This document shows, piece by piece, positions 39,594 through 64,000 of a DNA stretch of 64,000 bases. Position numbers and translations under genes: made by a program. The notes beneath the pieces are model-generated. The model searched no databases. It worked only from the letters and a program-made list of their open reading frames with translations, and had not been told where the DNA came from. Position 1 is the stretch's first letter. The number at the start of each line of letters is the position of its first letter. Origin of the DNA: Xenorhabdus mauleonii (lineage in GTDB: Bacteria > Pseudomonadota > Gammaproteobacteria > Enterobacterales > Enterobacteriaceae); NCBI RefSeq assembly GCF_900113945.1, contig NZ_FORG01000013.1:1-64000 (forward strand). The letters are read 5' to 3'.

Positions 39594-40580
39594 ATGAAAA
39601 TAAAAAATGTACACATTGTTATTTTTCCTAATCTCCTGACTAGCAGCATTACCTTACCTATTGAAATGCTTCATGCTGGTTTAGCTTCATCACAAATAGA
39701 AAATAAAAGAAATAATATCAATGTTAATTATATCTCAGACAAGGGTTATGATATTTCATTGTATGAAAACTTTAATATTAAGGCAGATTCATCTGCTGAC
39801 TCTGCCTCCTATGCAGATTTAATAATTGTTCCCAGTATTTGGCGAAACCCAAGGCCTATTATAAAAAAAAGTAAGGATATCTTGAGCTATTTATTAAATC
39901 AGTGGGAAAATGGAGCAACAATAGTTGCTGTTGGTACTGGAGTATGTTTGTTAGCGGAATCAGGTCTATTAGATGGCCTCGCTGCAACGACGCATTGGCA
40001 TTACTCCAAACAATTTAAAAAAGACTATCCCAAGGTAAACTTAAAGTCAGAATTTTTCATTACTCAATCAAATAGAATTTACTGTGCAGCTAGCCTCAAT
40101 GCACTGGCAGATGTTATGGTTCATTTAGTTTCTCTTCTTTATGGCAATAAAGCGGCCAAAAATGTACAACGCAATTTTTCTCATGAAATACGCCGGCCAT
40201 ACGAAGAACAACGGTACCTCGACGGTGCAGTAGATAGACACCCAGATGAGTTAATAAGCGATATTCAATCTTGGTTAAAAGATAATATTAAAGAAGACAT
40301 GAATCTTAATAAACTGGCCGCTTACTTTGCTATTTCGCCACGGACATTGACACGACGATTCAAAAGCTCTACAGGAGTATCTACTAAAAAATATATACAA
40401 GAGATACGGTTAGATATGGCAAAAGATCTTCTTGCCAAGACTAATTTAACGGTACATGAAATATCTGTATCAGCCGGATATGAGAGCCAAGCTTACCTTA
40501 GTAAAGTGTTCAAGCAACATTTTGATTTAAGTCCGACAGAATATCGACACATGGTCCGAAAGAAGCTATTTACACTTTAA
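39594..40580 (+). CDS. GlxA-type AraC family regulator (DJ-1/PfpI domain + AraC HTH)
   Basis: 328 residues. Residues 1-190 form a class I glutamine amidotransferase-like fold of the DJ-1/PfpI type, with GTGVCLLAESGLLDG (the Cys at the nucleophile elbow) and ATTHW. Residues 225-325 form the double helix-turn-helix of AraC regulators: NLNKLAAYFAISPRTLTRRF, then EISVSAGYESQAYLSKVFK and DLSPTEYR. Such proteins activate or repress nearby genes in response to small ligands. The divergent arrangement with fabY makes fabY the first target to consider; the NRPS gene at 41394 on the same strand is a second. Confidence 0.85.
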   Translation: MKIKNVHIVIFPNLLTSSITLPIEMLHAGLASSQIENKRNNINVNYISDKGYDISLYENFNIKADSSADSASYADLIIVPSIWRNPRPIIKKSKDILSYLLNQWENGATIVAVGTGVCLLAESGLLDGLAATTHWHYSKQFKKDYPKVNLKSEFFITQSNRIYCAASLNALADVMVHLVSLLYGNKAAKNVQRNFSHEIRRPYEEQRYLDGAVDRHPDELISDIQSWLKDNIKEDMNLNKLAAYFAISPRTLTRRFKSSTGVSTKKYIQEIRLDMAKDLLAKTNLTVHEISVSAGYESQAYLSKVFKQHFDLSPTEYRHMVRKKLFTL

Positions 40581-47300: not shown

Positions 47301-49460
47301 GATTTACACAGCGAAGAAACGACACATTTTGGTTTGACATTAACGGTATCCGGCACGGAACAATGGCTGGTGGAATTAAGTACCGGAGAGATGTTTAAGG
47401 GCGCGTTGGATTCAGTAAAAACCGCGTTTAATGCCTTTGAATCCTTGGCAGAAGATCTGATTGACAACACGGCAGGGACATTGATTGAAGATCTCTTTTT
47501 AAAGCTGAATGCAAAAGACCCGGAAGAAACCTCGTTAAGCATCGGAGAGATCAAGGAATCCATGCCGGATATTAATTCGCTGCTGGCAGGCATTTATCAA
47601 CGCCTTGACGGGGAGCCTCAGGAAGTCAGTTTGATCGACGGGCAGTATGCAATCAGCAATTGTGAATTATTGAAGGCAATGGGTGCAGTACAGGAGCGAC
47701 TACGCTCATCGGGCTTTATTCCCGGTGATCGCGTGGCAGTTCATCTTGAGAAAGGCTTTTTATCGACTCAAGCCATACTGGCGATCGTGTTCAGTGGTGG
47801 CAGTTATTGCTATATCAATCCGAAAGATCCCTTGCAACGCAAGAAAAAATTGCTGGAGTTGGCGAATTGCAACATGGTGTTGTGTGGGACTGCGTTTAAT
47901 CAGGAAATCGGTACAGAGACAAATTATTTATTGCTGGATATTGAGGACAATATTTTACAGCCAACGGAAGACAAACCCACTGTATGGCTTAACCGGCAAC
48001 CTGAAGATGAATTCTATTTCATTTTTACCTCAGGAACGACGGGGACCCCGAAGGGAATTTCTATTCGCAATGAGTCAGTAGCCAACCTGTTGGATTGGTT
48101 CATTGAAGAAACGGCGCTGACCGCGGCTGATAAAGTGCTTGGGCTGACTGATTTGAATTTCGATCCCAGCGTAGAAGATTTGTTTGCAAGTTTTGTGGTT
48201 GGCGCGACGTTAATTTATCCCTCTCCTGAAGTCTTGCTGGAGAGACAAGCGTTCATTAACGTGGTGCAATCCGCATCCATCACCTTAATCAACTTTATTC
48301 CCGGGGCCATCTCGCAGCTTATTCAAGACGCTCCCTTCTTCCCGTCCATGAGATTGTGGATATTTGGCGGTGAAGAATTACCTCAGCGTCTTAGGGATGA
48401 TTTGCTGCGGCAAGGATATGCGGTAAGCAATCATTATGGCCCGAGTGAGACAACGGTGGATTGCCTGAGTGCCAAACAATCCTTGGCGGCAGAAGTTGCC
48501 ATTGGGCGGCCAATTCAAAATGTTATCGCTTACTGTGCCGATATCTTTGGGCAACCATTGCCTGCCAATGTCCGGGGTGAACTTTGGGTAGGAGGCAGGG
48601 CAGTGGCCCGTGGCTACATGACTAACCCCGTTGAAACTGCCAAGTATTTTGTTAAGCCGGAACATTTGGCGCACTACAGCCAGCATCCTTTTTATCGTAC
48701 TGGCGATATGGTGACTTTTTCCGCTGAAACAGGTTTTCACTATCTGGGGCGAATTGATGATCAGATAAAAGTAAACGGTGTCCGCATAGAGCCTCGTGAA
48801 TTAGAGCGAGTGGTTGAGACACTGGCGGCGGTGAAATCAAGCTGCTTATTGCCTGCCACGACATCGAAAGGAAAACGCCAGTGGCATCTTTTTGTCGATA
48901 GCATGGAACAGCCTGCACTGTTGGAAACTCGGGTGAGGGAGCATATCCGGCGTCATTTCCCCGATGCCTGGCTCCCTTCACTGATTGTGGTTGTCGATGG
49001 GTTTAAACGTACCATTACCGGTAAGATTGATCGTCAGAGTTTACAGGAACATGCGCTGCAACAATTGCAAGTAAAACCCGTTGAAGATCACCTGTTGCTG
49101 GCTGATCCGGCGGCGATAAAAGTGCGGGCGATTTGGCAGGAAGTCCTCGAAAATGAAAGAGTGGGAACAGAAACGAATTTCTTTGAAGCCGGTGGCAACT
49201 CGATAAAGATAATTACATTGCAGTCTCTGTTGCAGCAGGCATTCAATCGTGAAATTCGAGTCACCACTTTATTTGAACATCCGACTATTGCCTCTTTTAC
49301 AAACTGGATTAAACAGGGCCAGTCATCATGCGGGCAAGCAAGTGGCGCGGAATTGGCATCCGCATCGGATAAAGTGTCTTCCCAAGCACATTTACAACGT
49401 TCGCTCCAATCAGGAAAAAGCAGATTGGCTGACAGACGACGTAAATCCACCGGGAACTAA
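41394..49460 (+). CDS. NRPS: Cstart-A(Asn)-T-E-C-A(basic)-T, xenocoumacin-type prodrug initiation
   Basis: 2688 residues. Starter C (H142HAAMDG), A1 (YTSGSTGEPKG near 635; D682) with code DLTKIGEVGK, the Asn code; T1 (Ser1065 in GGDS); E (H1247HLICDxxSW, with VGWFTG); C2 (H1728HILMDGWS); A2 (FTSGTTGTPKG near 2211; D2257) with code DPENIGHVDK, where E and D in the pocket point to a basic residue such as Orn, Arg or Lys; T2 (Ser2603 in GGNS). No thioesterase. This should produce N-acyl-D-Asn-(basic residue) on the last T domain, handed to the PKS starting at 53709. Acyl-D-Asn starters are the prodrug caps of xenocoumacin, zwittermicin and colibactin pathways, removed later by a periplasmic peptidase. 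The ribosome binding site before ATG is weak. Confidence 0.9.
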   Translation: MKKAIFELSRSQQAVFKMEAFHLTGCPFYLGVAVRLNGNIPLDGLVRAAEAVRNSMDIFHIGFESDDVEGSDLATHWHGIRRLTPHSEVIQVNFSNYPDSKQAFERWADRQMLIKEDLSLTPVRVFAVHFEQGQTGWFIKAHHAAMDGEGFSVLIEHLMMALAKEEPDTEPLLFSVHAEGEKNYEHSRRMQRDETYWRSIFSDSAINSGGSDGQEPDGSESSHANKISCRYPIGDYRTLTPRSKRVHYKLSKTHNDTLRQFKKSGGSIFRLFFAAVAYTQMVIEDGNGVLLQAPMLNRWSSEEKRSAAMAVAPVLIPVFREAGEGVVGCYHALKQRLQKAVAHSRYAPGARWSKFASQDWKKMIPAFGVSYQTGIFRKNVLGADVSIEHMQAVEALFATIHIHDRFEEGDFKLEADFRRIWTLAQCHEFLRMVTDYAMEAACAVLKQQETEQQEAEQKPSIKNKPETAFWEAPSIIPAMPIGVHLYHAFERYAENLLFKQAADVVTYRQGWHWINQFRLKLRDKLNEHDTHGPVFIVGRRTPEITLAYLACLIENITVVPVCPTMPVARLSVIARNSGAALCIYTEADSNIAESLDLPLLPLSLSKVELGKTGAEIVSSSENGTASAHDNPAYILYTSGSTGEPKGVVISPIALANYALAAKEAYTAETPFNAPLFTSFGFDLTQTTLLLPVLSGGFIQAHEQDIRDNPELLQTLLADESLTGVKCTPSHLALLIENSSVRSNPLTFIVGGENLSTSLVKKALNYFPAGSKVINEYGPTETTVGCCIYSASREKKEEREESHLGRNDTINTAVMPIGQALGKAEIAIKDSWGQTVPRGFKGEIWIGGPVLADGYLNNAAQTTEKFIHGVDGVSRWYRTGDLGLLDEQGVFHCLGRIDDEFKVRGYRIHPAEIEKAVEDVLVSFDENNSDSWKLKALKLTVDEMDGVEKYETIALCSSQPLSHDNPEFQLRLKAKIPDAWMPTLYCTVQPWPINANGKVDTGALTVAAKTQLMENGSALLGSVNEQGQKVTGSYQLPVWLNEAFLKPIWPQSVDFTTSFLEQGGDSIKAIRLVALLSREGIRISASELLTLNSLGAVLEKACIEQLEKDTADSAISAEIEASWIKHLPSISWFRQQNFKYSNRLQQGMVLELKPGLSAEEINAAISAVKAKHKIFSLRANQALTEFYFEPLKAGSETLIERETLASGESLADYLNQLQNLVSLETQPSVHAVVFDAVSQKNYLIWVCHHLICDVHSWIFLLDELDQAIQPITSRHNTAHDTEKETVEEQGAFLWGKWLSEYTSGTDSLPCSDTIHHPAAVPVTLALSICSRDFKLIEQRLKAERSQLIVSALMAVMQDNGTLPSQPVVLLENHGRLFSEAQIPAGWNAEMASAVGWFTGFNQLALDVPVDPSVPNSQTAFLRILKSGLYQANQSWTAQLGLNNTVKRPLICVNDIGFGLDGSRTWGHFSLEQTLSGGFRHPEEKSTADFDILIRDCLESGGVLVELQLGTPDADSDNAHHYLAQLNEKLLAWCDAQNNALRDPPVEHHLEQPLIPADFPLCQLAQSEFDPLVQGVLKTAIDSTNTAFDNNYLEELLEATPQANGLLFHALKDGNSAYHIGVAFSVKVNIDEKALLEVWQQIQQSQPALRSIFVWEGIRTPHQVIYALPRIPFEYVRVDSTTPHLPCKQRCLDWLADSKATPFELNKEVFRIVGFHDVNAGTLSLAFSFHHILMDGWSSSLLISLWLQGLRQQKIVPLDARNYSQQLWQGLSPEALMHSREYWQDVFQHLPSGDASATTKLLAEPLFRADEQDHAARNTNARLCVNSLWCEERRIAIETLCHRAGVTPASFIYLCWALTLAKFTFQKTVTLGCTFSGRGRALTQGVDRQPLGLFINTVPLILTLEGQWDTEAALRSVFQALQQAQQYEKTPPLLVREEAGINDELYDSIVVFDNYPIDATLKDANCGAFLTDLHSEETTHFGLTLTVSGTEQWLVELSTGEMFKGALDSVKTAFNAFESLAEDLIDNTAGTLIEDLFLKLNAKDPEETSLSIGEIKESMPDINSLLAGIYQRLDGEPQEVSLIDGQYAISNCELLKAMGAVQERLRSSGFIPGDRVAVHLEKGFLSTQAILAIVFSGGSYCYINPKDPLQRKKKLLELANCNMVLCGTAFNQEIGTETNYLLLDIEDNILQPTEDKPTVWLNRQPEDEFYFIFTSGTTGTPKGISIRNESVANLLDWFIEETALTAADKVLGLTDLNFDPSVEDLFASFVVGATLIYPSPEVLLERQAFINVVQSASITLINFIPGAISQLIQDAPFFPSMRLWIFGGEELPQRLRDDLLRQGYAVSNHYGPSETTVDCLSAKQSLAAEVAIGRPIQNVIAYCADIFGQPLPANVRGELWVGGRAVARGYMTNPVETAKYFVKPEHLAHYSQHPFYRTGDMVTFSAETGFHYLGRIDDQIKVNGVRIEPRELERVVETLAAVKSSCLLPATTSKGKRQWHLFVDSMEQPALLETRVREHIRRHFPDAWLPSLIVVVDGFKRTITGKIDRQSLQEHALQQLQVKPVEDHLLLADPAAIKVRAIWQEVLENERVGTETNFFEAGGNSIKIITLQSLLQQAFNREIRVTTLFEHPTIASFTNWIKQGQSSCGQASGAELASASDKVSSQAHLQRSLQSGKSRLADRRRKSTGN

Positions 49461-49967: not shown

Positions 49968-50816
49968 TTGAAAATATCAATTATTGGTGCTGGTGTTATG
50001 GGGCTGGATACGGCAATAACATGCGCTGCATACGGTCATAATATATTGCTTATAGATACATCTTCAGATGTTCTGGCTAACCTTGATGCAAGAATGTCAC
50101 GTGAATTCCGTTCATACCGAATGCTGAGTCCTGAATTCAAGGCCCTGAATTTGGCAGAATTGAAAAATAGAATTCAATTTGATTCGTCTTATAAAGAAAT
50201 TGAAGGCAGTGATTGGATTATTGAGAATGTGACTGAAGACTGGTCTATTAAACAGAATGTTTATGAAGTGATAACACAGTACGTTAAACCTGAAACTTAT
50301 GTTGCTGCAAATACAAGTTGTATATCTATCACAAAAATAGCTTCTGTTTTACCGTTCCCCCAAAATGTATTGGGATTACATTTTATGAACCCAGTACCGA
50401 TTAAAAAATGCGTTGAAGTCATCCAAGGTTTTCATACTTCCAAACAGACATTAAATGATGCAAAAAAATTCTTACAGGGAATAGGAAAAAATCCGGTTGT
50501 TGTGGAAGATTTTCCTGGATTCGTTTCAAATCGGCTTTCTCATTTATTCATGAACGAAGCGGCATTTCTTGTACAGGATAATGTGGCAAGCCCGCAAGAT
50601 ATCGATCGTATTTTCAAAGAAGGGTATGGCCATGCGATGGGGCCACTGGAAACCGCAGATTTGATTGGTTTGGATACCGTTGTTAATTCTTTGCACGTTC
50701 TTTATGAAAGCTATCAAGATCCGAAATACCGCTGTTGTCCTCTGTTAAAGAAAATGGTGGAAGCGGGAAATCTGGGCAGAAAAAGTGGTAAAGGATTTTT
50801 CAATTATAAAAATTAG
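49968..50816 (+). CDS. 3-hydroxyacyl-CoA dehydrogenase family enzyme for hydroxymalonyl-ACP
   Basis: 282 residues from a TTG start, chosen because the NAD-binding GAGVMG lies at residues 7-12 and GGAGG precedes the TTG. The substrate-binding signature includes LGLHFMNPVPIKKCVEV near residue 135, the catalytic His region and a C-terminal helical domain (KSGKGFFNYK). In zwittermicin and xenocoumacin pathways a homologue oxidises glyceryl-ACP at C3, the first oxidation towards hydroxymalonyl-ACP (known from ZmaG). It is the first of four tightly spaced genes; its stop is 8 bases before the next start. Confidence 0.85.
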   Translation: MKISIIGAGVMGLDTAITCAAYGHNILLIDTSSDVLANLDARMSREFRSYRMLSPEFKALNLAELKNRIQFDSSYKEIEGSDWIIENVTEDWSIKQNVYEVITQYVKPETYVAANTSCISITKIASVLPFPQNVLGLHFMNPVPIKKCVEVIQGFHTSKQTLNDAKKFLQGIGKNPVVVEDFPGFVSNRLSHLFMNEAAFLVQDNVASPQDIDRIFKEGYGHAMGPLETADLIGLDTVVNSLHVLYESYQDPKYRCCPLLKKMVEAGNLGRKSGKGFFNYKN

Positions 50817-50824
50817 GAATATTG

Positions 50825-51889
50825 ATGATGGACGATTTAATCAATAATCAGGTAAACAGCGAAACACCGGTAAAATGCATCATTTGGGATTTGGACAATA
50901 CATTATGGGATGGTGTGCTTTCTGAAGGTGATGATATTAAATTAAAGCCAGGAATAGAAAAAATTATCGACCAATTGGACCAAATGGGTATTTTGCAATC
51001 CATTGCCAGCCGGAATGAAGCCTTTGATGCCCTGGATATGCTGGAAAAATTCAATTTAAAGCATTATTTCATTTATCCCCAAATTCACTGGGGAGCCAAA
51101 TCCGCCTCCATTGAAAACATCCAGAAAAACTTAAACATAGCCGCAGATACTTTTATTTTTGTTGATGACCAACCTTTAGAACGAGATGAAGTTAAGGCTA
51201 AATTTCCGGAAGTGACATGCATTGATGCTGTGGAATATCAATCAATACTGAACTTGCCCCGAATTGCCAACATGGAAATATCGGATGATGCAAAATTAAG
51301 GAGGCAGAGATATCAGGAAGATATCTTGCGGAAAGAAGAAGAAGAGGAATTTATCGGCACTTCTGAAGAATTTCTTAGCCAACTTGATATGAAGTTTTAT
51401 ATTTCCAAAGCCAAATCAGAAGATCTCCTGCGAGCAGAAGAGCTGACGCAAAGAACGAATCAACTTAATTCAACCGGTATTACTTATAGCAGAGAACGGC
51501 TTAATGAATTAATTAATTCAGATGAATACGGTGTATTTGTTTTTGAGTTGGTCGATAAATATGGCTCTTATGGCAAAATAGGATTGGCATTAGTTCAATA
51601 CAAAGGAGAGGTTGATTATATTAAATTGCTGCTAATGTCTTGCAGAACTTTGTCCCGTGGCGTTGGAAGTATTGCATTGAATTATATTATGCAGCAGGCG
51701 AAAGCAAAATCGCACAAATTGTATGCTGAATTTAAACGCACACCCCGAAATCGGCAGATGTTTGTTACTTATCAATTTGCGGGCTTTAAAGAAATAGAAA
51801 AACTGGCAGATGAAACAATTATTTTTGAGCATGAATTAAAGAATGTACCTGATTTTCCTTACTATGTTGATGTGATTATAAATAACTAG
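50825..51889 (+). CDS. FkbH-like HAD protein (glyceryl-ACP formation)
   Basis: About 354 residues. HAD motif I is IIWDLDNTLWDG near residue 20, and the C-terminal half has the GNAT-like LLMSCRTLSRGVGSIAL. FkbH-type proteins take glyceryl from 1,3-bisphosphoglycerate, remove the phosphate and load it on a dedicated ACP. ATG at 50825 or 50828 fits AGGA at 50815-50818; an earlier TTG at 50822 is too close. The stop is 9 bases before the preferred ACP start. Its place between dehydrogenase and ACP supports hydroxymalonyl-ACP synthesis. Confidence 0.9.
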   Translation: MMDDLINNQVNSETPVKCIIWDLDNTLWDGVLSEGDDIKLKPGIEKIIDQLDQMGILQSIASRNEAFDALDMLEKFNLKHYFIYPQIHWGAKSASIENIQKNLNIAADTFIFVDDQPLERDEVKAKFPEVTCIDAVEYQSILNLPRIANMEISDDAKLRRQRYQEDILRKEEEEEFIGTSEEFLSQLDMKFYISKAKSEDLLRAEELTQRTNQLNSTGITYSRERLNELINSDEYGVFVFELVDKYGSYGKIGLALVQYKGEVDYIKLLLMSCRTLSRGVGSIALNYIMQQAKAKSHKLYAEFKRTPRNRQMFVTYQFAGFKEIEKLADETIIFEHELKNVPDFPYYVDVIINN

Positions 51890-51898: not shown

Positions 51899-52156
51899 AT
51901 GAAAGATCTGGAAACTATCGCCAAAGACATACGTGAATTTATTGAAAACAATATCTCTGTATTTGATGATGATGTTGAATTACTGGATGACACCAATATA
52001 TTTACCAGTGGTTTAGTCAATTCGCTTTTTGCTATGCGTTTGCTTTGTTTTATTGAAGAGAAATGCGCACTCACCATCCCTGATGAGTACATAGAGCGCG
52101 ATAATTTTGTTTCAATAAATGCAATGCTGGATCTTATTAATAAAATCAGAGGCTAA
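51899..52156 (+). CDS. Discrete acyl carrier protein for hydroxymalonyl extender
   Basis: 85 residues from ATG 51899 (AGGA with 8-base spacing; the upstream ATG at 51893 lies too close to it). The phosphopantetheine Ser is in SGLVNSLFAMRL (residue 42 from this start). Acidic and helical, as expected of an ACP. It should carry glyceryl, then the oxidised hydroxymalonyl group, to an acyltransferase of the PKS. It ends 7 bases before the acyl-CoA dehydrogenase start. Confidence 0.88.
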   Translation: MKDLETIAKDIREFIENNISVFDDDVELLDDTNIFTSGLVNSLFAMRLLCFIEEKCALTIPDEYIERDNFVSINAMLDLINKIRG

Positions 52157-52163
52157 GATTCAC

Positions 52164-53315
52164 ATGGAGCGATATGAAATGCATCCTTTGGTGGATGTTG
52201 CAAAAAATTTTTCAGATAACATATTAAGGCCATCCGCAGGTTTGATTGACACTCAAGGTAAAGTGCCTGATGAAATTATGGCGGAAATGGCAACGCTGGG
52301 TTTATTGGGCGCCATTTTTCCAAAAGAATATGGTGGTCAGGGCATAGATCCCCTGTCTTATGGTTATTTGACTGAAGAAATAGGCAAGGGGTGTAATTCG
52401 ACACGTGCGCTGTTGACGGTACACACCAGTTTAGTGGGTGAAACGCTAGTAAAACTGGGCAGCCAGACGCAAAAAGAAAAGTACCTGCCTGCAATGGCAA
52501 AAGGGGAAAAAATAGCCTGCTTCGCCTTATCAGAACCTGAGGCCGGTTCTGATGCCAACGCCATTAAAACACGGTATGAAGTGACAGAAAATGGCTTCAG
52601 AATCAATGGCAACAAGAAATGGATCACCTATTCAGGCATTGCTGACTTATTCCTTGTTTTTGCCAAGTGTGAAGAAAAAGTGAGTGCGTTTATCGTCGAG
52701 TTCGGGGTTGATGGATTAACGAGAAAGCCGATGCCCGGTTTAATGGCAAGCCGTGGCGCTTATTTATCGGAACTGAATTTTGATAATGTCGAAATACCCC
52801 AAGAGAATTTAATCGGGCGCGAGGGAGAAGGTTTCAGCTTTGTTGCAAATACCGCGCTTTATTTTGGGCGTTACAGCATTGCCTGGGCGGGGGTGGCGAT
52901 TGCCCATGCAGCAATGGAAGAAATGGTGACCTATGCCCGTAAAAGAAAACAGTTCGGCCAGAAAATTGCCCAGCATCAATTGATTCAGGGGATTATTGCG
53001 GATTCTGCGACCGCTTTTTATGCCGCCAAAGCTGCCTGTGAAAAGATCGGGCACATGAGGAATCAAGGCGATCACAATGCCATTATGGAAACCAATATCG
53101 CCAAATATAATAGTTCTGCTGTCGCTATGCTGGTCACCAATAACGCGGTGCAAGTGCTTGGCGGAAATGGGTTAATCAATAAATACCCGGTAGAAAGATT
53201 ATATCGTGAAGCCAAAGTCTTGGAGATTATCGAAGGAACAAATCAAATTCAACAAATGCTGATATCACAGCATGCCTTGCGTGGCTTTTATAGGAAAGGC
53301 TCGGTTATCGAATAA
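52164..53315 (+). CDS. Acyl-CoA dehydrogenase family enzyme for hydroxymalonyl-ACP
   Basis: 383 residues from ATG 52164, preceded by GAGG at 52150; a longer frame from 52119 overlaps the ACP and adds residues foreign to the family. Typical features are CFALSEPEAGSDANAIKT, WITYSGIADLFLVFAK, ARKRKQFGQKIAQHQLIQG, and LEIIEGTNQIQQM, where the Glu is the catalytic base. In zwittermicin synthesis the homologue (ZmaE) carries out the second oxidation to hydroxymalonyl-ACP. It closes the four-gene set. Confidence 0.9.
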   Translation: MERYEMHPLVDVAKNFSDNILRPSAGLIDTQGKVPDEIMAEMATLGLLGAIFPKEYGGQGIDPLSYGYLTEEIGKGCNSTRALLTVHTSLVGETLVKLGSQTQKEKYLPAMAKGEKIACFALSEPEAGSDANAIKTRYEVTENGFRINGNKKWITYSGIADLFLVFAKCEEKVSAFIVEFGVDGLTRKPMPGLMASRGAYLSELNFDNVEIPQENLIGREGEGFSFVANTALYFGRYSIAWAGVAIAHAAMEEMVTYARKRKQFGQKIAQHQLIQGIIADSATAFYAAKAACEKIGHMRNQGDHNAIMETNIAKYNSSAVAMLVTNNAVQVLGGNGLINKYPVERLYREAKVLEIIEGTNQIQQMLISQHALRGFYRKGSVIE

Positions 53316-53708: not shown

Positions 53709-56700
53709 ATGGTAAACAATGTCACTGGTCTTGAAGTTGCTATAGTTGGAATGGCTGGTCAATTCCCTGGCGCAGACAATGTGCATGATTTTTGGAAAAT
53801 GCTCTGTGATGGAAAAGAAGGTATTAGCCGATTTACTCAAGAAACATTAGAAAATAATGGGATATCGCCTGAAGAGTATTTAAACGAAGATTATGTTCCT
53901 GCTAAAGGTATCATCAACAAACCCTACCATTTTGCAGCCGATTATTTTGCAATTAATCATCCGGATGCAGAAAAAATGGATCCTCAAACCCGCTTGATGA
54001 TTGAAACTTGTTGGCAGGCGCTTAACCATGCCGGTATTGATGCCAAAGACTATCCGGGGGAAATTGGTGTTTATGCAGGAGCAGGTAATCAGTGGTCGTG
54101 GTTTAAAACATTAAACACTGAATTTAACTCTTCTGCCGAGCAATTCCATGTTGCAACATTAAATGATTCTGCATTTTGTTCGCGTATTTCCTATTTACTG
54201 AATTTACGTGGCCCGTCCGTGACGATACAAACGGCCTGTTCAACCTCACTGGTGGCGGTGCATACAGCCTGTCAGGCCTTGCAAGCCGGAGAATGTGATA
54301 TTGCTTTGGCCGGCGGCGTCAACGTAACGCACCCGCATCAAGCCGGATACATGTATCAGGAAGGGATGATAAATAGCATTGACGGCAAGACACGGGTATT
54401 TGATGAGCAGGCGGGGGGAACGGTATTCAGTAATGGGGTTGGTGTTGTTGCCCTGAAAAGATTGGCGGATGCGATTGAAGACAACGACAGAATTTATGCC
54501 GTGATTAAAGGCAGTGCCATTAACAACGACGGTAATGACAAAATCAGTTTTACCGCCCCCAGCGCCTTAGGGCAAGAAAAGGTTATTCGGGCGGCATTGG
54601 ATGTCTCGGAAGTTGATCCGGCCAGTATTAGTTATATAGAAACGCACGGAACAGGAACGGTATTGGGTGATCCGATTGAAATTGCCGCGCTGAATGCCAT
54701 TTTTCACGGGCAGCAATCTTGCGCCATTGGCTCGGTTAAATCCAATGTCGGGCACTGTGATACCGCCGCAGGGGTAATATCACTGATAAAGCTGTCATTG
54801 TGTATTTATTTCAAGACACTCGTGCCATCCATTCATTTTAAAAAAGCCAATAAAAAATTAGCACTGGAAAAAACACCTTTTCATGTTAATACGCAAACAA
54901 AATCTTGGGTCACCAAAAACAATGCGCCAATCTATGCCGGCGTCAGTGCTTTTGGTGTTGGCGGAACGAATGCCCATCTCGTTTTACAAGAATTTTCGGA
55001 GAGAACGGAATCGGCATCAACAGAACATCTGAATTATCAAGAATTGCCCAATCGAATTGAATTTAAGCCTTCAATAAAAAAAGAGATGCCTGCTGCTTTT
55101 AATGAAAAGCAACACAATGAAGAACAAGATAATGAAGAGCAAGAAGTGTCAGTCGATTTTGCAGAGAAAATAGATATCAATGTTATTTTGAAAGAGATGT
55201 TGAATGTATTAACAACGTATTTCCCAAATAAAAGTATTTCCAAAGATGATAATTTCTTTGATGCTGGTGCCAGCTCGTTAGATATTGTTCAGTTACACGA
55301 AAAAATAAATTCGCATTATGCAATTAAATTATCAATTAATGATTGGTATCGTTATACCACCTGCCAGAAAATTGCTGAGAAAATATACGAGGCCATCAAT
55401 GAAACACCACGAAAAACGCCTCGTGAATTGAAAAAAGCAGTCAATGGAAAAACATCAGATAGTGTAAAAGCGTCAGGCCGTATAAAAACAAGCCATCATG
55501 ATTATCCTGAAAATGCCATTGCGGTTGTTGGCATAAGCGGCCGTTTCCCCGGCAGCCATAATGCACGGGAATATTGGAAAAATATCTTGTCCGGCAAAGA
55601 AGGTATCTCTTTCTTTACCGATGATGAATTGATTGATGCGGGAATTCCGGAATATATTTTCAAAAATAAGCATTATGTCAGAGCAAAAGGCATTGTTGAA
55701 AATGCCTTGGATTTTGATAAAACCGCATTTGGTTACACCATGCGTGAAGCGCAATATATGGACCCACAATTCCGTTTATTGCATGAAATAACGTGGGAAG
55801 CATTGGACGACGCAGGATATGGTAATCCAAGGTATCGCCCGATAACGGGCCTGTTTGCTTCTTCTGGCTCTAATTATGAATGGTTAGATCGGGTGAAGGA
55901 GGAAGTCAAAGATACAACAGAACAGTTCAGTATCGGGCTGTTAAATGACCGTGAATTCCTCACAACCCGAATCGCTTATAAATTGAACCTTACTGGGCCA
56001 GCCGTGACCGTTCAGAGTGCCTGTTCCAGTTCTGCGCTGGCTATCACGCTCGCCTGCCAAAGTCTGCGGGTTAATCAATGTGATTTAGCGTTGGCGGGGG
56101 GCGTTTCCATTACTGTTCCCGTGAAAAATGGCTACATGTATGTCAATGGCATGGTGAATAGCGCAGATGGGCATTGTAAGCCATTTTCAGAGGATGCCAG
56201 CGGGACAGTGTTCAGTGATGGCATTGGCATGGTTGCCTTAAAAAGATTGGAAGATGCGATCGACAGCAACGATCACATCTATGGCGTGATTGCTGGCTAT
56301 GGCGTCAATAATGATGGTTATGAAAAAGCCGGTTTTACCGCGCCAAGCGCCAATGGGCAAGCGGCCTGCATTAAACAATCTCTGGAAATGGCCGGTATTT
56401 CTGCCAACGATGTCGGCTATTTGGAAGCGCATGGTACAGCGACCTTGGTAGGCGATGATATTGAGCTGGAAGGGATCAAAAGTGCGTTAAGCGTTACAGA
56501 CGATAATCCCACTATTTGCCGCATTGGCAGTGTTAAATCAAATCTCGGTCACACCGACAGTGCCGCGGGCGTTGCTGGTTTCATCAAGACATTATTGGCA
56601 GTGAAGCATAAGCAGATCCCGCCAACTTGCCATACTGAAAAAGAAGATCATGCGTTGCTGGAAGGAACACGATTCCGCTTAATTCATACGGCAACTGATT

Positions 56701-59700
56701 GGGGCAAGCATAACGCGATCAGAACAGCAGGCTTGAGTTCATTTGGCATTGGGGGAACCAATGTCCATATCACGATCCAATCGATCTTAGATAACATCAG
56801 TCACGAACAAGATCGCCCAGAACTGATCACACTCTCAAGCAAAAGCAGAGAAGGATTGATTAAGACGGCAGAAACATTAGGCCATTTTCTAGATGAAGAG
56901 CCACATACCACCGCGCTTTCTGATATTGCTTACACTCTCCAAATTGGGCGAGGAGAGCATGAATATCGCACATCGTTTGTGGCAGACAATGTAGAAGGGC
57001 TAAAAAATGCCTTATTGAAAGTCAAAGAGACAAGCAAAATCGCTGAAATTTCCCCTGATCAAACATCGGGTATTGTATTTATGTTCCCGGGTCAGGGGGC
57101 GCAATATATCAATATGGCGAGGGATTTATACAATGAATTAGGGGTGTTCAGAAAGGTTCTTGATGAGTGCCATGAATTTCTTTTCGAGAGATTCGGCATG
57201 AATTTACTGGCATTGCTCTATGATGAAAACCATCCAGACAGTGCAGAAAAACTCCGCAATACACAATTTACCCAGCCCATTATTTTTGCCATCTCTTATG
57301 CCCTGGGCAAGAGTCTGGAAACGTTAGGCATAGAAGCCAAGGCGATGATTGGTCATAGCATCGGTGAATATGTGGCTGCTGCAATGTCAGGGGTTATGAC
57401 ATTGGATGAGGCGTTAGAGCTTGTCGCTGTCAGAGGTCTTATCATGCAGGAATGCAAACCGGGAGCGATGCTGAGTGTTTCTGCCGGCAGGGAAGAGGTT
57501 GAGCCTTATTTAACGGATGAAGTGACCTTGGCAACGGTGAATTCATCAACGGCCTGCGTTATCGCGGGGCCGCAAGATGAAGTTGAAAAAGTTCAGCTTT
57601 CGTTGGCAGATAAAAATTATCGTACCCGATTATTGGAAACCTCCCATGCGTTTCATACAGCAATGATGAAACCGGCGGTCGGAAAATTTAAAGAAGCGCT
57701 GAGGAAGATAAAATGGAAGAAACCCAATAAAGCCTATATCTCCAATGTCACGGGTCAATGGATCACGGCAGAACAAGCAAATTCCATTGATTATTGGGTT
57801 GCCCATTTGTGCGAAACCGTTGAATTCCACCAAGGGATTATGACGTGTTTAGATAAGCCGGAGTTGAATACGTTTATCGAAGTCGGGCCGGGCAGAACAC
57901 TGTCGACTTTTGTTAAGCAAGTTATTGGAGCAAATACCGATATCTCTGTTATTAATGTGATGCGACATCCATTGGAAGAGGAAAATGATCGGGCATATTT
58001 ATTAAAATTACTGAGTCAGCTTTGGATGAAGGGTTACGCCATCAATTGGCCAATCATTTATCAAGATGCCAATCCAAGAAGGATCAGCCTGCCCGGCTAT
58101 CAGTTTATCTCAGAAAAAATGGGCCCCGGGAATTTACAGGCCAGCTCAAATCATGCGGAAAAAATAACTGAGACTCGGATACAAAAAAATAATATTTCAG
58201 ACTGGTTGTATGGTGAAACATGGCAGGATGCGCGCTTACCCGATAAATCTAACCAATCTGAAGTAAAAACCGCCTTGTGCTTTGTTCCAAGTATGGAATG
58301 GTGCGAGCCGCTTGCCCGTCATCTGAATGTTGATGAAAAATCAATAAAGTTTGTGTTATCAGGTGATGATTACACTTCTGTGAATAATGTGATTACATTG
58401 GCCGCAGGTGAAGCCAGCCATTTCGAAAAACTCTTCCATGAATTAAAAGAAAATCAGCTACAACCTGATTCGGTGATATTTGCCTGGCCTTTATCGGGCC
58501 ATCGGGATTTGAAAAATACTTGGTTTTCTGCCATTACGTTGCTTCAGGCATGGGCAGCCGTAGGGAATATGGGGGATTTCCGGTTATTGTTGGTGAATAC
58601 AGAACAACCCGAATCCGGAATGCTCAAAGGGTTGGTCAAAGTCATTACTCAAGAAGTCGGTAAATGCCATCCCAGATTAGTTCAAATCAATACAACAGAA
58701 TCGATTGAAAGTACCTGTGAGATATTAACTGAAGAATTACTGGCAACAGATAAGCGTTTTATCGTTTGCCGGACAGAGGGGCGTTGTTCTCAACAAGCCT
58801 ATGAACGGCTTTATGTGGAGCCACAGAAGAAGGATTCGCTCCTGAAACAGCGGGGCACTTACCTGATTACCGGCGGGCTGGGTGATTTAGGTTTGCTGTT
58901 TGCAGAATATCTTTTGAAAGAATATCAGGCAACGGTGATTCTGTCTGGTCGCCGGGAATTACCCGACAGGTATGAGTGGCAGCAGGCAGCCCAAGCAGAT
59001 TTATCGACCACCGGCCTGTTGCAGCAACTGAATAAACTTGCCGATCTTGGCAAAGGCAATGTGGTTTATTATTCGGCGAATGTGGCCGATAAATCCGCCA
59101 TGCAGCGTTTATTGCAGACGATAGATAAGCAACATGGCGCATTGAATGGCATCATCTGTGCGGCGGGTGTGACGGAAGGCGATTCGTTTCAGGGCATTAA
59201 CCGGATAACGCTGGATGCTTGTTCGCCACAAATAGAAACGAAAGTTGAAGCCTATAAAATTCTGGCAGAATTAACAGAAAATCAGCCACTGGATTTTTGC
59301 CTGCTTTGTTCTTCAATCGCTTCCATGCTGGGGGGCTTAAGTTTTTCTGCCTATAGCTCTGTCAGTGCATTTGCTGATGAGTTTGCAAAGCAACAAAACC
59401 AGAAAGGCAACCCCTGGATTAGTATTAACTGGGATGGCTGGGTGTTTGAACGCAATGATTCTGGTGATGCTCTGGGTTCCTCATTGAGCCAGCTTTTAAT
59501 TGAACCGGATGAAGGCATTCAAATTCTGGAACGTGTTTTACAATCACCATTGCGAGGGCAAATTATTGTCTCCACCGGTGATTTGAATCAACGCTTTGAA
59601 CAATGGGTTGGTTCTCATTTAAAACCCTTTGATATTAATAAAAACAGTCAATCTCAAAGCAAAACAATTTCCAAAGATCAGATCACAGAAACCATCGTTT

Positions 59701-62700
59701 CAATTTGGAAAGATTTCTTAAAAATCAACCAGATTAACAGTGAAGATAACTTCTTCGAATTAGGGGCAAATTCGCTGGATTTGGTGCAGGTTAATAAAAG
59801 ATTAACCGATGCCTTAGATATTGATATCTCTGTTGTGGATATGTTCAGTTATCCCACCTCCGCGTTATTGGCTGATTACATAACGAGTCAATATGGAATA
59901 GTCAGCACAACTGATAGCCAGCCTGATACAAGCCATCATAATGATGAACGTGATGTTGTAGCAGAATACGCGGTTAAACCGGATACGGTTCTTGATAATC
60001 ATATTGCGATTGTCGGAATGGCCGGAAAATTCCCGGGTGCCGAAGATATTTATGCGTTTTGGGATAATTTGTGCTACGGCAAAGAATCAATCAGCATACT
60101 GAGCAAGGAAGAATTAATTGAATCAGGCATTGATGCCGATTTATTAGATGATCCGAATTATGTTCGTGCCAAAGGCATCATGCCGCATTCCGGTGAGTTC
60201 GATGCTGAATTCTTTGGTTATACACCCCATGAAGCACGGCAAATGGATCCACAGGTTCGGGCAATGCACATTTGCTGTTGGCAGGCATTGCAGGACGCGG
60301 GGATCTCGCCCAAAAACAACAAGCTGAAAATTGGTTTATATACTGCGGCGTCAGGCAATCTGCCGTGGCTGGCACAGGCAATGGCAACGGCTGAAGGCAG
60401 CGCCGGCCAATACAGTGCGATGGTTGTGGCAGACAAAGATTATATGTCGACCAGTGTGTCATATAAATTAAATTTGTCCGGGCCAAGTATGGTCATTTCA
60501 ACGGCTTGTTCTTCATCGCTGGTTGCTGTGAACGAAGCAATTAAATCATTGCGCACGGGTGAATGTGATGTTGCAATGGCTGGTGGTGTTTCAATTACGT
60601 TGCCAATTAAAGCCGGATATTTATTTGAAGAAGGCATGATTTATTCCAAAGATGGAAAATGCCGGCCATTTGATATTCAGGCTAACGGAACAGTATTTAG
60701 TGATGGCGTTGGCGTCGTCGTTCTGAAACCACTGAAACAAGCGATAGCAGACAAAGATGATATTTATGCCACTATTATCGGCTGCGGCATTAATAATGAC
60801 GGTGGCATGAAAGTAGGTTATACCGCGCCCAGTACAAAAGGTCAGGTTGACGTTATTCAGGCCGCATTGCGGGATGCCAATGTTTCATCAGAATCGATAC
60901 ATTTTGTAGAAGCACACGGCACAGGCACGAATTTGGGTGATCCCATTGAATTTAATGCGCTGAAACAAGCGTTTTCAACGGATAAAAAGAATTATTGCAG
61001 AATCGGCAGTGTGAAGTCGAATATCGGCCATCTCAATTTCGCTTCTGGGGTTGCAGGGCTGATCAAAGCGGCTTTGTCTATCAAGAATAAAGTATTGCCG
61101 CCAACGCTGCATTTTGCCCGTCCCAATAAAGAAATGGATATTGCGAATAGTCCATTTATGGTGAATAACCAATATACGGAACTGCATGGCAATAAATACC
61201 CGATTAGGGCGGGTGTCAGCTCCTTTGGTCTTGGCGGCACGAACGTGCATATTGTGCTGGAAGAGTATCGGGTTGACCAAAATAAATTATCCGGACAAAA
61301 GGCAACTAATCGCTTGCCATTGATTTTATCGGCACCGGACGAAAAATCATTGCAGTCATATAAGAAACAGCTAAAGCAGTTTATTCAAAGTGATAACCAA
61401 ACACTGAATATCAGTGACGTAGCTTACAGCTTGATGCAAAGAGAGCCAATGGCTTCACAATTTATTGCTGTCGTGAACAACCGTGAAGAATTGATCCACG
61501 CGCTCTCTTCAACAGAAAAAGACAATATCAAACTGTCACGCGGAATTAAGCGGAAAGTAGTGTTTTTGTTCCCCGGCCAAGGTTCGCAATATATCGCTAT
61601 GGGGCAAGATCTCTATAAAAATAATGTCTTGTTCAGGCAGTGGTGTGATAAAGGGTTCGTGATTGCAAAAGAATATTGCACAACGGATTTGAAAGCGTTG
61701 CTGATTAATGATTCTCAAGAGCATTCTATTTACGAAACTGAAATTGTTCAGCCATTATTGTTCATTATTGAATATGCCTTGGCACAGGTTCTGAAATCTT
61801 ATGATATTACACCTGATGTCATGATAGGTCATAGTTTGGGAGAATATGTAGCCGCCACACTCGCCGGTGTATTCTCATACGCAGAAGCAGTTAAGATTAT
61901 CTGTATTCGTGGCAGATACATGCAATCGACAGAAACGGCGGCGATGCTCTCTGTCATGGCTTCTTCAGATAAAGTAAGGGAAATCTTACCGGAAGGTCTT
62001 GATATTGCCTTGGATAACAGCAGTGAAATTTGTGTTGTTGCGGGATCAGATGAGGCAATGATCCAATTCGAAGAAATCTGCCGTACAGAATCTATCAAAG
62101 CAAAACGTCTGGAAATTAAAAGAGCTTTCCATACGCGTTATATGGACTCTATTTTGAAAGACTATGGTCAGGCGCTTAAAGAGATCACACTCAATAAACC
62201 TCAAATTGGTTTTATATCAAATGTGACAGGCGAATGGGTGGATAACAAACGCGTGATAGAAAGTGATTATTGGGTGGAGCATATTCGTCAGCCTGTCCGT
62301 TTCAAACAATCCATTGCGACAGCCTTAGAAAATGAACATTGTTTGTTTATTGAAGTGGGGCCGGGCAATGGGCTTTCGACGCTAGTGCAAAATCATTCCG
62401 GCTATAATGCCAACCACGCCTGTCTTGCTTGGCAGAGTCACAAAACCAAAGGGATGAGCCACCATCATGAACTGATAGAAAAATTAGCCATGATCTCTTT
62501 ATATGGTGTCCGTGTGAATTGGCAGCAGGAGCTGGATGAACAGCAACCCGAATTAATTCATTTGCCACCCACGCCAATCCGCGGAAAAGAGTATCCGACC
62601 GATATCAAACGATTGCAGGCATTATTTTCTGGTAATTCGTCGGGTATTGTCGAACAGGTTGAGAAAGCGGAAAAAATAAATACTCACCAGGCCGATCGGG

Positions 62701-64000
62701 AAAGAGCGCAGCACAGCGTGATTGATCAATTAAGCGCTATTTGGAAGCTCATTCTGGGTATTGAACATATCGACAGCAGCGATGATTTTATTTCTCTGGG
62801 GGGCAGTTCTCTTTCTGCCGTACAAGTGATTGCAAAAGCGAAGGAGATAAATTTACCGATTAACATCAATATGTTGTTATCAGGTAAAACACTGCTGGAA
62901 ATCAATCAATTATTGGGCAATGAGAATAACGTTGAATATAAGACAACACGTTGGACATTCAATGAAAAATTTTCGCCTGAATTATATCCAGAGTATGCAA
63001 GCTGTCTGTATTCCGCCGTCAGAGAAAAATTGAAATATGAGCACCAATTAGACTGTAGTGATGCGCTTATGTTGGTTTCAGACGGTAGCCCGTTATTCGG
63101 CATAACATTACAGCAGCGTGAAAATGAAATTCAATTATCGCATCAGGAGGTTAATTTTGGCAGCCAGCTTGGCTGGCCTGCTTTAGACGAGAGTTATTCT
63201 TTCTCTTATGCCAAGAAATTCTTTGATGATTATGAATCCTATCGTAATTACTGTGAAAAAGAGTTATCCCTTGGGCATGTTGTCATTGTAGCAGGAAGTG
63301 ATTACTACTTACCTTTCTCACCTTCATACGGCTTATCAGAGGCGGAATACATAGCAAGGCCGCTATTTCAGGATATCGTTTTGGATGATGAGGTCATTCC
63401 ACACACGTTTGTATTGGTTGGAAAGACAGAATTGGGTTATCAAGTCTACGACGGCAGCTTCCAATACTTTGGCGAAATTACCGAACAGGAATTTGCACAA
63501 ACAGTGATTGGGTTCAAGGGATTGGATTTTATGCAATCACATGAAGTCTATAAGAAATCCCGTCCCTATTTGGTGATTACCGTAAATTGTGTTGGTGATT
63601 TTCCTGATAGCAAAGAACAACAAAAAATCATTTTGCAGAACCTGACTCATGATTTCAGAAAAGAGGAAGAGATTACATACAATGAAAATGAGTTTTCTTG
63701 TTATATAGGGTTGGCTGCAATCGAAAAACTCATTGCAATGCCCGCATTGTTAACGAATAGTACAGTGACTGATTTGGAAAAAATGTTTGTGCGCTGGCGT
63801 GATCAAATGTCTTCATTAAAGAGATTCCTGATTATGGCCAAGCCAGAAAGTGCCAGTCAGCTTGAAAATTCATTCTCTGTCATCCAAGAGAAAATGGAAG
63901 AGCTGATAGTATCGTGTGCAGCTCATGATAATGGCGGTGATAACGTCAGTCGCTTAATTCAACTTAAGTCTGAATTGGAACATGTTATTAAGATTATTTC
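53709..64000 (+). CDS. Multimodular PKS: KS-ACP, KS-AT-KR-ACP, KS-AT-ACP, BtrH-like domain (3' end outside window)
   Basis: Over 3430 residues, open to the window end. AAAGG lies about 7 bases before the ATG. KS1 (about 8-427, Cys177), ACP1 (Ser523). KS2 (about 602-1030, Cys772), AT1 (about 1120-1400; Ser1217 in GHSIGEY, HAFH 1313-1316, malonyl-like), KR (from about 1716, TGGLGDLG), ACP2 (Ser2022). KS3 (about 2098-2515, Cys2267), AT2 (from 2615; Ser2709 in GHSLGEY, but RAFH at 2805-2808), ACP3 (Ser3034). From about 3076 a domain resembling BtrH/papain-like acyltransferases follows, with Cys3099, His3232 and Asp3248. All three KS have the Cys-His-His set. It should extend the acyl-D-Asn-(basic residue) chain from the upstream NRPS, with at least one hydroxymalonyl unit. 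Module 1 lacks an AT, so an acyltransferase must act in trans. Modules beyond the window are possible. Confidence 0.93.
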   Translation, partial: MVNNVTGLEVAIVGMAGQFPGADNVHDFWKMLCDGKEGISRFTQETLENNGISPEEYLNEDYVPAKGIINKPYHFAADYFAINHPDAEKMDPQTRLMIETCWQALNHAGIDAKDYPGEIGVYAGAGNQWSWFKTLNTEFNSSAEQFHVATLNDSAFCSRISYLLNLRGPSVTIQTACSTSLVAVHTACQALQAGECDIALAGGVNVTHPHQAGYMYQEGMINSIDGKTRVFDEQAGGTVFSNGVGVVALKRLADAIEDNDRIYAVIKGSAINNDGNDKISFTAPSALGQEKVIRAALDVSEVDPASISYIETHGTGTVLGDPIEIAALNAIFHGQQSCAIGSVKSNVGHCDTAAGVISLIKLSLCIYFKTLVPSIHFKKANKKLALEKTPFHVNTQTKSWVTKNNAPIYAGVSAFGVGGTNAHLVLQEFSERTESASTEHLNYQELPNRIEFKPSIKKEMPAAFNEKQHNEEQDNEEQEVSVDFAEKIDINVILKEMLNVLTTYFPNKSISKDDNFFDAGASSLDIVQLHEKINSHYAIKLSINDWYRYTTCQKIAEKIYEAINETPRKTPRELKKAVNGKTSDSVKASGRIKTSHHDYPENAIAVVGISGRFPGSHNAREYWKNILSGKEGISFFTDDELIDAGIPEYIFKNKHYVRAKGIVENALDFDKTAFGYTMREAQYMDPQFRLLHEITWEALDDAGYGNPRYRPITGLFASSGSNYEWLDRVKEEVKDTTEQFSIGLLNDREFLTTRIAYKLNLTGPAVTVQSACSSSALAITLACQSLRVNQCDLALAGGVSITVPVKNGYMYVNGMVNSADGHCKPFSEDASGTVFSDGIGMVALKRLEDAIDSNDHIYGVIAGYGVNNDGYEKAGFTAPSANGQAACIKQSLEMAGISANDVGYLEAHGTATLVGDDIELEGIKSALSVTDDNPTICRIGSVKSNLGHTDSAAGVAGFIKTLLAVKHKQIPPTCHTEKEDHALLEGTRFRLIHTATDWGKHNAIRTAGLSSFGIGGTNVHITIQSILDNISHEQDRPELITLSSKSREGLIKTAETLGHFLDEEPHTTALSDIAYTLQIGRGEHEYRTSFVADNVEGLKNALLKVKETSKIAEISPDQTSGIVFMFPGQGAQYINMARDLYNELGVFRKVLDECHEFLFERFGMNLLALLYDENHPDSAEKLRNTQFTQPIIFAISYALGKSLETLGIEAKAMIGHSIGEYVAAAMSGVMTLDEALELVAVRGLIMQECKPGAMLSVSAGREEVEPYLTDEVTLATVNSSTACVIAGPQDEVEKVQLSLADKNYRTRLLETSHAFHTAMMKPAVGKFKEALRKIKWKKPNKAYISNVTGQWITAEQANSIDYWVAHLCETVEFHQGIMTCLDKPELNTFIEVGPGRTLSTFVKQVIGANTDISVINVMRHPLEEENDRAYLLKLLSQLWMKGYAINWPIIYQDANPRRISLPGYQFISEKMGPGNLQASSNHAEKITETRIQKNNISDWLYGETWQDARLPDKSNQSEVKTALCFVPSMEWCEPLARHLNVDEKSIKFVLSGDDYTSVNNVITLAAGEASHFEKLFHELKENQLQPDSVIFAWPLSGHRDLKNTWFSAITLLQAWAAVGNMGDFRLLLVNTEQPESGMLKGLVKVITQEVGKCHPRLVQINTTESIESTCEILTEELLATDKRFIVCRTEGRCSQQAYERLYVEPQKKDSLLKQRGTYLITGGLGDLGLLFAEYLLKEYQATVILSGRRELPDRYEWQQAAQADLSTTGLLQQLNKLADLGKGNVVYYSANVADKSAMQRLLQTIDKQHGALNGIICAAGVTEGDSFQGINRITLDACSPQIETKVEAYKILAELTENQPLDFCLLCSSIASMLGGLSFSAYSSVSAFADEFAKQQNQKGNPWISINWDGWVFERNDSGDALGSSLSQLLIEPDEGIQILERVLQSPLRGQIIVSTGDLNQRFEQWVGSHLKPFDINKNSQSQSKTISKDQITETIVSIWKDFLKINQINSEDNFFELGANSLDLVQVNKRLTDALDIDISVVDMFSYPTSALLADYITSQYGIVSTTDSQPDTSHHNDERDVVAEYAVKPDTVLDNHIAIVGMAGKFPGAEDIYAFWDNLCYGKESISILSKEELIESGIDADLLDDPNYVRAKGIMPHSGEFDAEFFGYTPHEARQMDPQVRAMHICCWQALQDAGISPKNNKLKIGLYTAASGNLPWLAQAMATAEGSAGQYSAMVVADKDYMSTSVSYKLNLSGPSMVISTACSSSLVAVNEAIKSLRTGECDVAMAGGVSITLPIKAGYLFEEGMIYSKDGKCRPFDIQANGTVFSDGVGVVVLKPLKQAIADKDDIYATIIGCGINNDGGMKVGYTAPSTKGQVDVIQAALRDANVSSESIHFVEAHGTGTNLGDPIEFNALKQAFSTDKKNYCRIGSVKSNIGHLNFASGVAGLIKAALSIKNKVLPPTLHFARPNKEMDIANSPFMVNNQYTELHGNKYPIRAGVSSFGLGGTNVHIVLEEYRVDQNKLSGQKATNRLPLILSAPDEKSLQSYKKQLKQFIQSDNQTLNISDVAYSLMQREPMASQFIAVVNNREELIHALSSTEKDNIKLSRGIKRKVVFLFPGQGSQYIAMGQDLYKNNVLFRQWCDKGFVIAKEYCTTDLKALLINDSQEHSIYETEIVQPLLFIIEYALAQVLKSYDITPDVMIGHSLGEYVAATLAGVFSYAEAVKIICIRGRYMQSTETAAMLSVMASSDKVREILPEGLDIALDNSSEICVVAGSDEAMIQFEEICRTESIKAKRLEIKRAFHTRYMDSILKDYGQALKEITLNKPQIGFISNVTGEWVDNKRVIESDYWVEHIRQPVRFKQSIATALENEHCLFIEVGPGNGLSTLVQNHSGYNANHACLAWQSHKTKGMSHHHELIEKLAMISLYGVRVNWQQELDEQQPELIHLPPTPIRGKEYPTDIKRLQALFSGNSSGIVEQVEKAEKINTHQADRERAQHSVIDQLSAIWKLILGIEHIDSSDDFISLGGSSLSAVQVIAKAKEINLPININMLLSGKTLLEINQLLGNENNVEYKTTRWTFNEKFSPELYPEYASCLYSAVREKLKYEHQLDCSDALMLVSDGSPLFGITLQQRENEIQLSHQEVNFGSQLGWPALDESYSFSYAKKFFDDYESYRNYCEKELSLGHVVIVAGSDYYLPFSPSYGLSEAEYIARPLFQDIVLDDEVIPHTFVLVGKTELGYQVYDGSFQYFGEITEQEFAQTVIGFKGLDFMQSHEVYKKSRPYLVITVNCVGDFPDSKEQQKIILQNLTHDFRKEEEITYNENEFSCYIGLAAIEKLIAMPALLTNSTVTDLEKMFVRWRDQMSSLKRFLIMAKPESASQLENSFSVIQEKMEELIVSCAAHDNGGDNVSRLIQLKSELEHVIKII

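Follow-up and report, generated by a model that had tools for sequence, protein, structure and literature searches.

The question raised by this locus is what a modular polyketide synthase (PKS) does with a domain that follows its third acyl carrier protein (ACP) domain. The stretch of DNA analysed here (the window) covers bases 1-64,000 of a 122,026-base contig of Xenorhabdus mauleonii, and the last gene in it encodes a PKS that does continue past this carrier, ACP3, by about 350 further residues. The original prediction, made from the sequence of the window, described these residues as a BtrH-like acyltransferase with a papain-like Cys-His-Asp triad and a helical tail, releasing the polyketide by amide formation with an amine acceptor. 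It overlooked the context of the gene: the cluster is xcnA-L, and the PKS is XcnF (AmiL-M in X. bovienii). With somewhat more than even confidence, based on sequence comparisons and structural models, we favour the reading that XcnF ends in a papain-like acyltransferase akin to BtrH, CtaG and CcbD, with the triad Cys3099-His3232-Asp3248, which frees the product as a lactone.

The cluster was identified by comparison with stretches fetched from genome G216. When 15 proteins were queried, eleven Xcn proteins (A, B, C and E-L) matched in order, with 82-98% identity; xcnD was left out of the query and was placed by position. An AraC-type regulator and the BpsA-SpeD, SDR and FabF-like proteins had no match in the fetched stretches. 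Downstream of xcnF are encoded beta-lactamase-fold, PKS-C, thioesterase, Darcynin-domain and A-PCP (adenylation and peptidyl carrier protein) proteins and a PKS composed of ketosynthase (KS), acyltransferase (AT), ketoreductase (KR) and ACP domains. By Pfam, XcnI is a stand-alone thioesterase and XcnL is the KS-AT-KR-ACP PKS. The same gene order, xcnA-L, is found in X. nematophila (PMC5313471, available part), and AmiL-M of X. bovienii, with 3419 residues, is given as the XcnF homologue (PMC5055758, available part); the open reading frame (ORF) read here from X. bovienii T228 is also of 3419 residues. As XcnF is an already published protein, the architecture is not unique to the window. XcnJ (Darcynin domain, L002:18878-19201) is the best conserved of the eleven cluster proteins relative to G216, at 98% identity, and we know of no role for it. 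In G216, xcnL is followed by two ORFs in the places of xcnM and xcnN, named from their position and from what the proteins look like. A search of the X. mauleonii genome, run without a positive control, gave no match to the protein in the xcnM position, so the conversion of Xcn1 to Xcn2 may be missing here.

XcnF is 3432 residues long, its ORF ending two residues (SE) and a stop codon beyond the window, at L002:10408. Pfam assigns to it three KS, two AT, one KR and three ACP domains, in the module order KS-ACP, KS-AT-KR-ACP and KS-AT-ACP, and then come the roughly 350 residues under study. Module 1 (window positions 53709-55500) is a KS-ACP module with no Pfam match to an AT, and therefore must be loaded by another AT. 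There is no match to the Pfam Thioesterase family (PF00975) in XcnF at E<=1, and no match to any Pfam family at E<=10 in the 361-residue piece comprising residues 3072-3432. In two fetched pieces, identity to the G216 orthologue is 91% (residues 1-3106) and 83% (residues 2941-3432).

The terminal domain is found in eight of 30 Xenorhabdus genomes, which are exactly the eight that carry xcnC. Beyond the X. mauleonii genome, none was found in a sample of 198 genomes of its own family, and nothing convincing in a phylum sample of 398 genomes. Orthologues were aligned with one sequence for each of the eight Xenorhabdus genomes (those with species names being X. koppenhoeferi and X. bovienii). Cys3099, His3232 and Asp3248, the numbering of which was exact in the original prediction, are invariant in all eight, at 56-86% identity to the window copy (84-86% in the three closest orthologues and 56% in X. 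bovienii T228), and the motifs quoted there (GHVVIVAGSDYYLPFSPS, PHTFVLVG and YQVYDG) are all present. The ratio of non-synonymous to synonymous substitution rates (dN/dS) was taken between the window copy and X. koppenhoeferi only, synonymous sites being saturated in most segments of the comparison with X. bovienii. It is 0.090 for residues 3085-3310, the catalytic part of the domain, and 0.212 for the tail, and elsewhere in XcnF it is 0.061-0.066 for KS, 0.095-0.106 for AT, 0.108 for KR, 0.074-0.197 for ACP domains and 0.081-0.161 for linkers. The catalytic part is thus under purifying selection, though no stricter than that on the rest of XcnF or on some linkers. X. bovienii shares 68% of the residues of the catalytic part and 36% of those of the tail.

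Likeness to the BtrH_N family (PF14399) appears when the sequences are aligned jointly. From 27 BtrH_N loci at hand, four were excluded as incomplete or misread by script, and the remaining 23 proteins were aligned with the eight terminal domains in three MAFFT modes. In all three modes, Cys3099, His3232 and Asp3248 fall on the Cys, His and Asp of the family in 23 of 23 BtrH_N proteins; Leu3201 matches in all 23 as well, and Pro3202 in 21. The 31 rows share five invariant columns, three of which are catalytic. The BtrH_N proteins had been trimmed to start about 12 residues ahead of their Cys, and so the match of the Cys is favoured. When columns were shuffled, all three residues were aligned in none of 200 trials and at least two in 24, and the reversed terminal domain aligns one catalytic residue. 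A further control used 53 windows cut from three PKS orthologues, four of which contain the whole triad, while some of the other 49 overlap the domain partly. All four align the triad; among the 49, one (starting at alignment column 720, in KS2) aligns all three residues and eight align two. Above-threshold BtrH_N matches were found in 11 of 299 genomes (12 matches) and in 20 of 369 genomes, in samples that overlap partly and have at least five loci in common. They sit in open frames of 73-473 residues, and thus none in these two samples is part of a megasynthase.

Structure prediction points to the same group of enzymes. In the AlphaFold2 model made from the 31-row joint alignment (the seeded model), ten-residue blocks within residues 91-190 have predicted local distance difference test (pLDDT) values of 70-92, except for 47 at 141-150, and the Cys stands at the start of a helix, followed by strands with the His and the Asp. 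Every one of the 11 Foldseek chains with E<=0.001 comes from one of two proteins, AziU3/U2 or CtaG, with 2.8e-6 as the best value; CcbD chains come next (3.9e-3 to 2.7e-2), and an unrelated chain first appears at 0.059. With the joint profile, the putative C39-like peptidase 3erv is matched at E 0.0024. Identity to CtaG, CcbD and AziU3 in the structural alignments is 8-16%. CtaG variants named in PDB titles are C11A, H128A and D144N, so that the His and Asp are 16 residues apart, as are His3232 and Asp3248. The model made from the eight orthologues alone has a pLDDT of 47.5 and a predicted template modelling score (pTM) of 0.43, and Foldseek found no match to it below E 0.001; CtaG nevertheless ranks first and takes six of the top eight rows (E 0.32-0.89, template modelling (TM) scores 0.24-0.28). 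The tail is predicted to be helical in both models, as had been proposed. The refuting condition set with the original prediction, a lack of matches to BtrH or to cysteine-peptidase folds, thus does not apply, though the Pfam score is below the curated cut-off. We infer a papain-like fold with moderate confidence, and it is with moderate confidence too that we suggest that the domain works like a BtrH-type acyltransferase.

Xenocoumacin and amicoumacin are dihydroisocoumarin lactones with an 8-hydroxy group, and the starter on XcnK is presumably a leucine unit. On the assignment of modules that we propose, XcnL would add C4-C4a and reduce C3, module 1 of XcnF would add C5-C6, module 2 would add C7-C8 and reduce C6, and module 3 would add C8a-C1, giving four malonyl units for XcnL and XcnF together with reduction only at C3 and C6. 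Although the assignment is our own, it is supported by agreement of the carbons with the nuclear magnetic resonance (NMR) table of amicoumacin (C1 169, C3 CH 81, C4 CH2, C5-C7 CH, C8 C 160.9 ppm; PMC7649127, available part). Feeding of trifluoro-leucine has been carried out in the amicoumacin pathway (PMC4894447, available part). Aldol closure of C8a onto C4a with loss of two waters would give a phenol oxygenated at C8 alone. Before or after this closure and water loss, the poly-beta-ketone chain may pass from ACP3 to a thioester on Cys3099, whereupon its own C3 hydroxyl would attack C1 and the chain would leave as the dihydroisocoumarin lactone; perhaps the terminal domain folds the isocoumarin as well. 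Module logic, together with the known product, would put ACP3 at the end of the line, and the domain behind it then stands where a release domain would be expected. As the product is a lactone, the natural acceptor would be the chain's own hydroxyl and not an external amine; release as an amide, as originally predicted, would call for a different product. The wider proposition, that a papain-fold domain within a modular PKS takes an aromatic ring built on the assembly line, lactonises it and sets it free, making an ester instead of an amide and replacing a thioesterase, is one on which we find the evidence evenly balanced.

Several results weigh against the release of a lactone by a BtrH-like domain. 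The resemblance to BtrH_N is remote and, by sequence profile alone, at noise level, both in hhalign and in hidden Markov model (HMM) profile comparisons. Searched as a 240-residue piece, the domain reaches 12.7 bits (E 0.15), far short of the Pfam cut-off of 29.7 bits, and the whole 361-residue piece has no match to BtrH_N. In a scan of the whole genome, the match (63192-63326, 12.7 bits, E 0.399) is the second of two at E<=10, the first being a 719-residue frame elsewhere in the genome that is RecG-like by eye. The residue just before the Cys is Ser in all eight terminal domains, and His in 22 and Asn in one of the 23 BtrH_N proteins. DUF4872 (PF16169), which stands beside BtrH_N in each of three scanned members of the family, has no match in the terminal domain at E<=10, in a search whose filters discard most weak matches, and its GTGG(A/G)GFR motif is absent from the helical part of the domain. 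We do not claim membership of BtrH_N, because the cut-off and two motifs fail; what stands of the BtrH-like acyltransferase originally predicted is the likely type, at a place where chain release would be expected. The seeded model, with a pLDDT of 59.6 and a pTM of 0.54, is still of low confidence, and its alignment presumes the relationship to BtrH_N, so that it is support and not proof. The TM-scores of its matches are low (0.26-0.40) and the root-mean-square deviations high (10-13 A), meaning that the match is local and not a good overall superposition, and with the unseeded model most of what VIA-align matches is the helical tail. As to chemistry, BtrH, CtaG and CcbD are known for forming amides from carrier-bound acyl groups and not esters; the cluster also encodes the stand-alone thioesterase XcnI; and a hydroxy-thioester of this kind could close to the lactone unaided.

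Release as an amide would suit the closest folds, those of cysteine acyltransferase-type proteins, among which CcbD has been solved, according to PDB titles, with a PCP domain and with methylthiolincosamide; a polyamine-type gene, BpsA-SpeD, also lies downstream. Even so, this part of the original prediction is most improbable now that the cluster is identified, for the products of xcnA-L have a lactone carbonyl at C1, no amine-making gene is seen among xcnA-L, and, judging by module order, the amine of the product should already be acylated at the condensation domain of XcnH. BpsA-SpeD was rejected as a source of the acceptor, being on the other strand and unnecessary for the known product. 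It is unlikely, but worth keeping in mind, that the domain is a cyclase or aromatase which guides the aldol closure, with release left to XcnI or occurring spontaneously and with the Cys-His-Asp set as an acid-base or covalent holding site. Aldol closure is needed, family scans of the cluster reveal no dedicated cyclase, and XcnI is a thioesterase. The highly conserved XcnJ might share the cyclase work, although Table 1 of PMC5055758, in the available part of that source, gives it no B. subtilis homologue. The conserved order Cys-His-Asp is, however, typical of acyl-transferring enzymes.

We think it quite unlikely that the domain is an unusual thioesterase, hydrolysing the chain to a free acid which then lactonises by itself, as the nearest solved proteins are transferases. 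The fold class does contain C39-like peptidases (PMC10318531, available part), in agreement with the match to 3erv. Chance resemblance, with the domain being a lineage-specific and non-catalytic one, for example for docking, could explain the noise-level profile scores, the low TM-scores and, among the control windows lacking the whole triad, the one that aligned all three residues and the eight that aligned two. This is very unlikely in view of the purifying selection, the invariant triad, and the first rank that CtaG still takes with the unseeded model. Release of the lactone by a papain-like acyltransferase domain remains the reading that we prefer. The coordinates of the features are collected in Table 1.

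Table 1. Features of the xcn cluster and of XcnF within the window
Feature	Window position	Strand	XcnF residues	Basis and remarks
AraC-type regulator upstream of xcnA	39594..40580	+		Pfam; candidate cluster member at most
xcnA-type NRPS (nonribosomal peptide synthetase)	41394..49460	+		Pfam; 88% to G216 over residues 532-2688, the end of the fetched stretch
xcnB, 3-hydroxyacyl-CoA dehydrogenase type (3HCDH)	49968..50816	+		Pfam; 93% to G216
xcnC, FkbH/HAD	50822..51889	+		NCBIfam FkbH
xcnD, small carrier protein, ORF of 87 residues	51893..52156	+		Position and size only
xcnE, acyl-CoA dehydrogenase	52119..53315	+		Pfam; 95% to G216; ORF as listed, true start may be some codons in
xcnF-type PKS gene	53709..64000	+		ORF listing, Pfam, orthologue match; last two codons and stop past window end
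AT of last XcnF module	61560..62369	+	2618-2887	Pfam Acyl_transf_1
ACP3	62724..62903	+	3006-3065	Pfam PP-binding, 31.5 bits; assumed final carrier of the assembly line
XcnF terminal domain	62961..64000	+	3085-3432	Joint alignment, models, Foldseek
Predicted papain-like catalytic part of terminal domain	to 63638		to ~3310	Helical tail after
Cys3099	63003-63005	+	3099	Proposed nucleophile, helix start; invariant in 8/8 orthologues and 31/31 joint-alignment rows
GHVVIVAGSDYYLPFSPS motif	63273-63326	+		Aligns with LPY motif of BtrH_N
PHTFVLVG	63399-63422	+		Present in XcnF
His3232	63402-63404	+	3232	Proposed general base; invariant in 8/8 orthologues and 31/31 joint-alignment rows
YQVYDG	63438-63455	+		Present in XcnF
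Asp3248	63450-63452	+	3248	16 residues past His3232; invariant in 8/8 orthologues and 31/31 rows

Just downstream of xcnL, at L003:6880-8385 (-), lies the BpsA-SpeD gene, a fusion of branched polyamine synthase and S-adenosylmethionine (AdoMet) decarboxylase. Part of such a gene is found about 2.6 kb from xcnL in genome G208, and none in the 2.3 kb fetched beyond xcnL of G216, a stretch too short to tell. The window holds a second cluster, of NRPS type, at 9431-39470 (-), with two NRPSs of 2933 and 4778 residues and six adenylation domains in total. It includes a D-Ala-D-Ala ligase (35572-36717), a protein with two ABC domains (33246-34997) that scores best with the NCBIfam model of ABC-F ribosomal protection, at 334 bits where the cut-off is 380, and, at 37566-39470, a FabF-like protein with an extended N-terminal part (634 residues in all). 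Self-protection is a possible role for the ligase and the ABC-F protein. At the end of this cluster, an ORF of 523 residues (7393-8964, -) is matched neither by Pfam (E<=0.01) nor by NCBIfam (E<=1e-10). Another Xenorhabdus genome, G012, encodes a stand-alone, divergent BtrH_N protein (L034:7215-8186, -) in an NRPS cluster that also has genes for a tRNA-synthetase-like protein, a carbamoyltransferase, an ATP-grasp protein and an aminotransferase.

The cluster and the PKS are known, and the terminal domain seems to be undescribed within the literature searched. XcnF of X. nematophila and AmiL-M of X. bovienii are encoded by the orthologous gene, with the same neighbours and the same terminal domain; in the parts of the literature available they are called only a PKS, and the end of the protein is given no function. 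No role for it is given in PMC5064115, or in the available parts of PMC5055758, PMC4894447, PMC8036425, PMC7649127, PMC6567599, PMC6391269 and PMC5313471. An ami cluster hosted in E. coli has been published (PMC8036425, available part), and the AmiM protein of Bacillus is listed as WP_003240106.1 (PMC7649127, available part). A BtrH-like domain in a PKS is not reported in the literature searched, where the original xenocoumacin cluster paper was not sought by its identifier; of the papers on BtrH and polyketides, PMC2922099 and PMC3949708 do not deal with a PKS fusion in the parts available. In the same literature, as far as its texts were available, the closure and release of the xenocoumacin and amicoumacin isocoumarin are left open, and the present finding points to one cysteine, Cys3099. 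If the reading is true, the known parts of PKSs would gain a release domain that is papain-like and needs no thioesterase, and with it a further class of release domain inside a studied antibiotic pathway, in which a class of enzyme known for amides makes a lactone in cis.

Known systems resemble the proposed one in different respects. The ajudazol PKS also releases its product by lactonisation, with formation of an isochromanone ring (PMC4901931, available part), but by a thioesterase, to which XcnF has no match. BtrH, an ACP:aminoglycoside acyltransferase, and the BtrH_N family, which is close to the C39 and C70 families (PMC10318531, available part), share with the terminal domain the order and register of Cys, His and Asp, an LP[YF] motif and a helical C-terminal part. 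The XcnF domain differs from them in having SC in place of HC, in lacking GTGG(A/G)GFR, in its sub-threshold score and in being fused to a PKS. BtrH belongs to the butirosin pathway, and we take CtaG, CcbD and AziU3 to belong to those of closthioamide, celesticetin and azinomycin, respectively. These last three act in trans, CtaG and CcbD forming amides. They are separate proteins with 8-16% identity to the XcnF domain, yet they are its top structural matches, and CtaG has the same 16-residue spacing of His and Asp.

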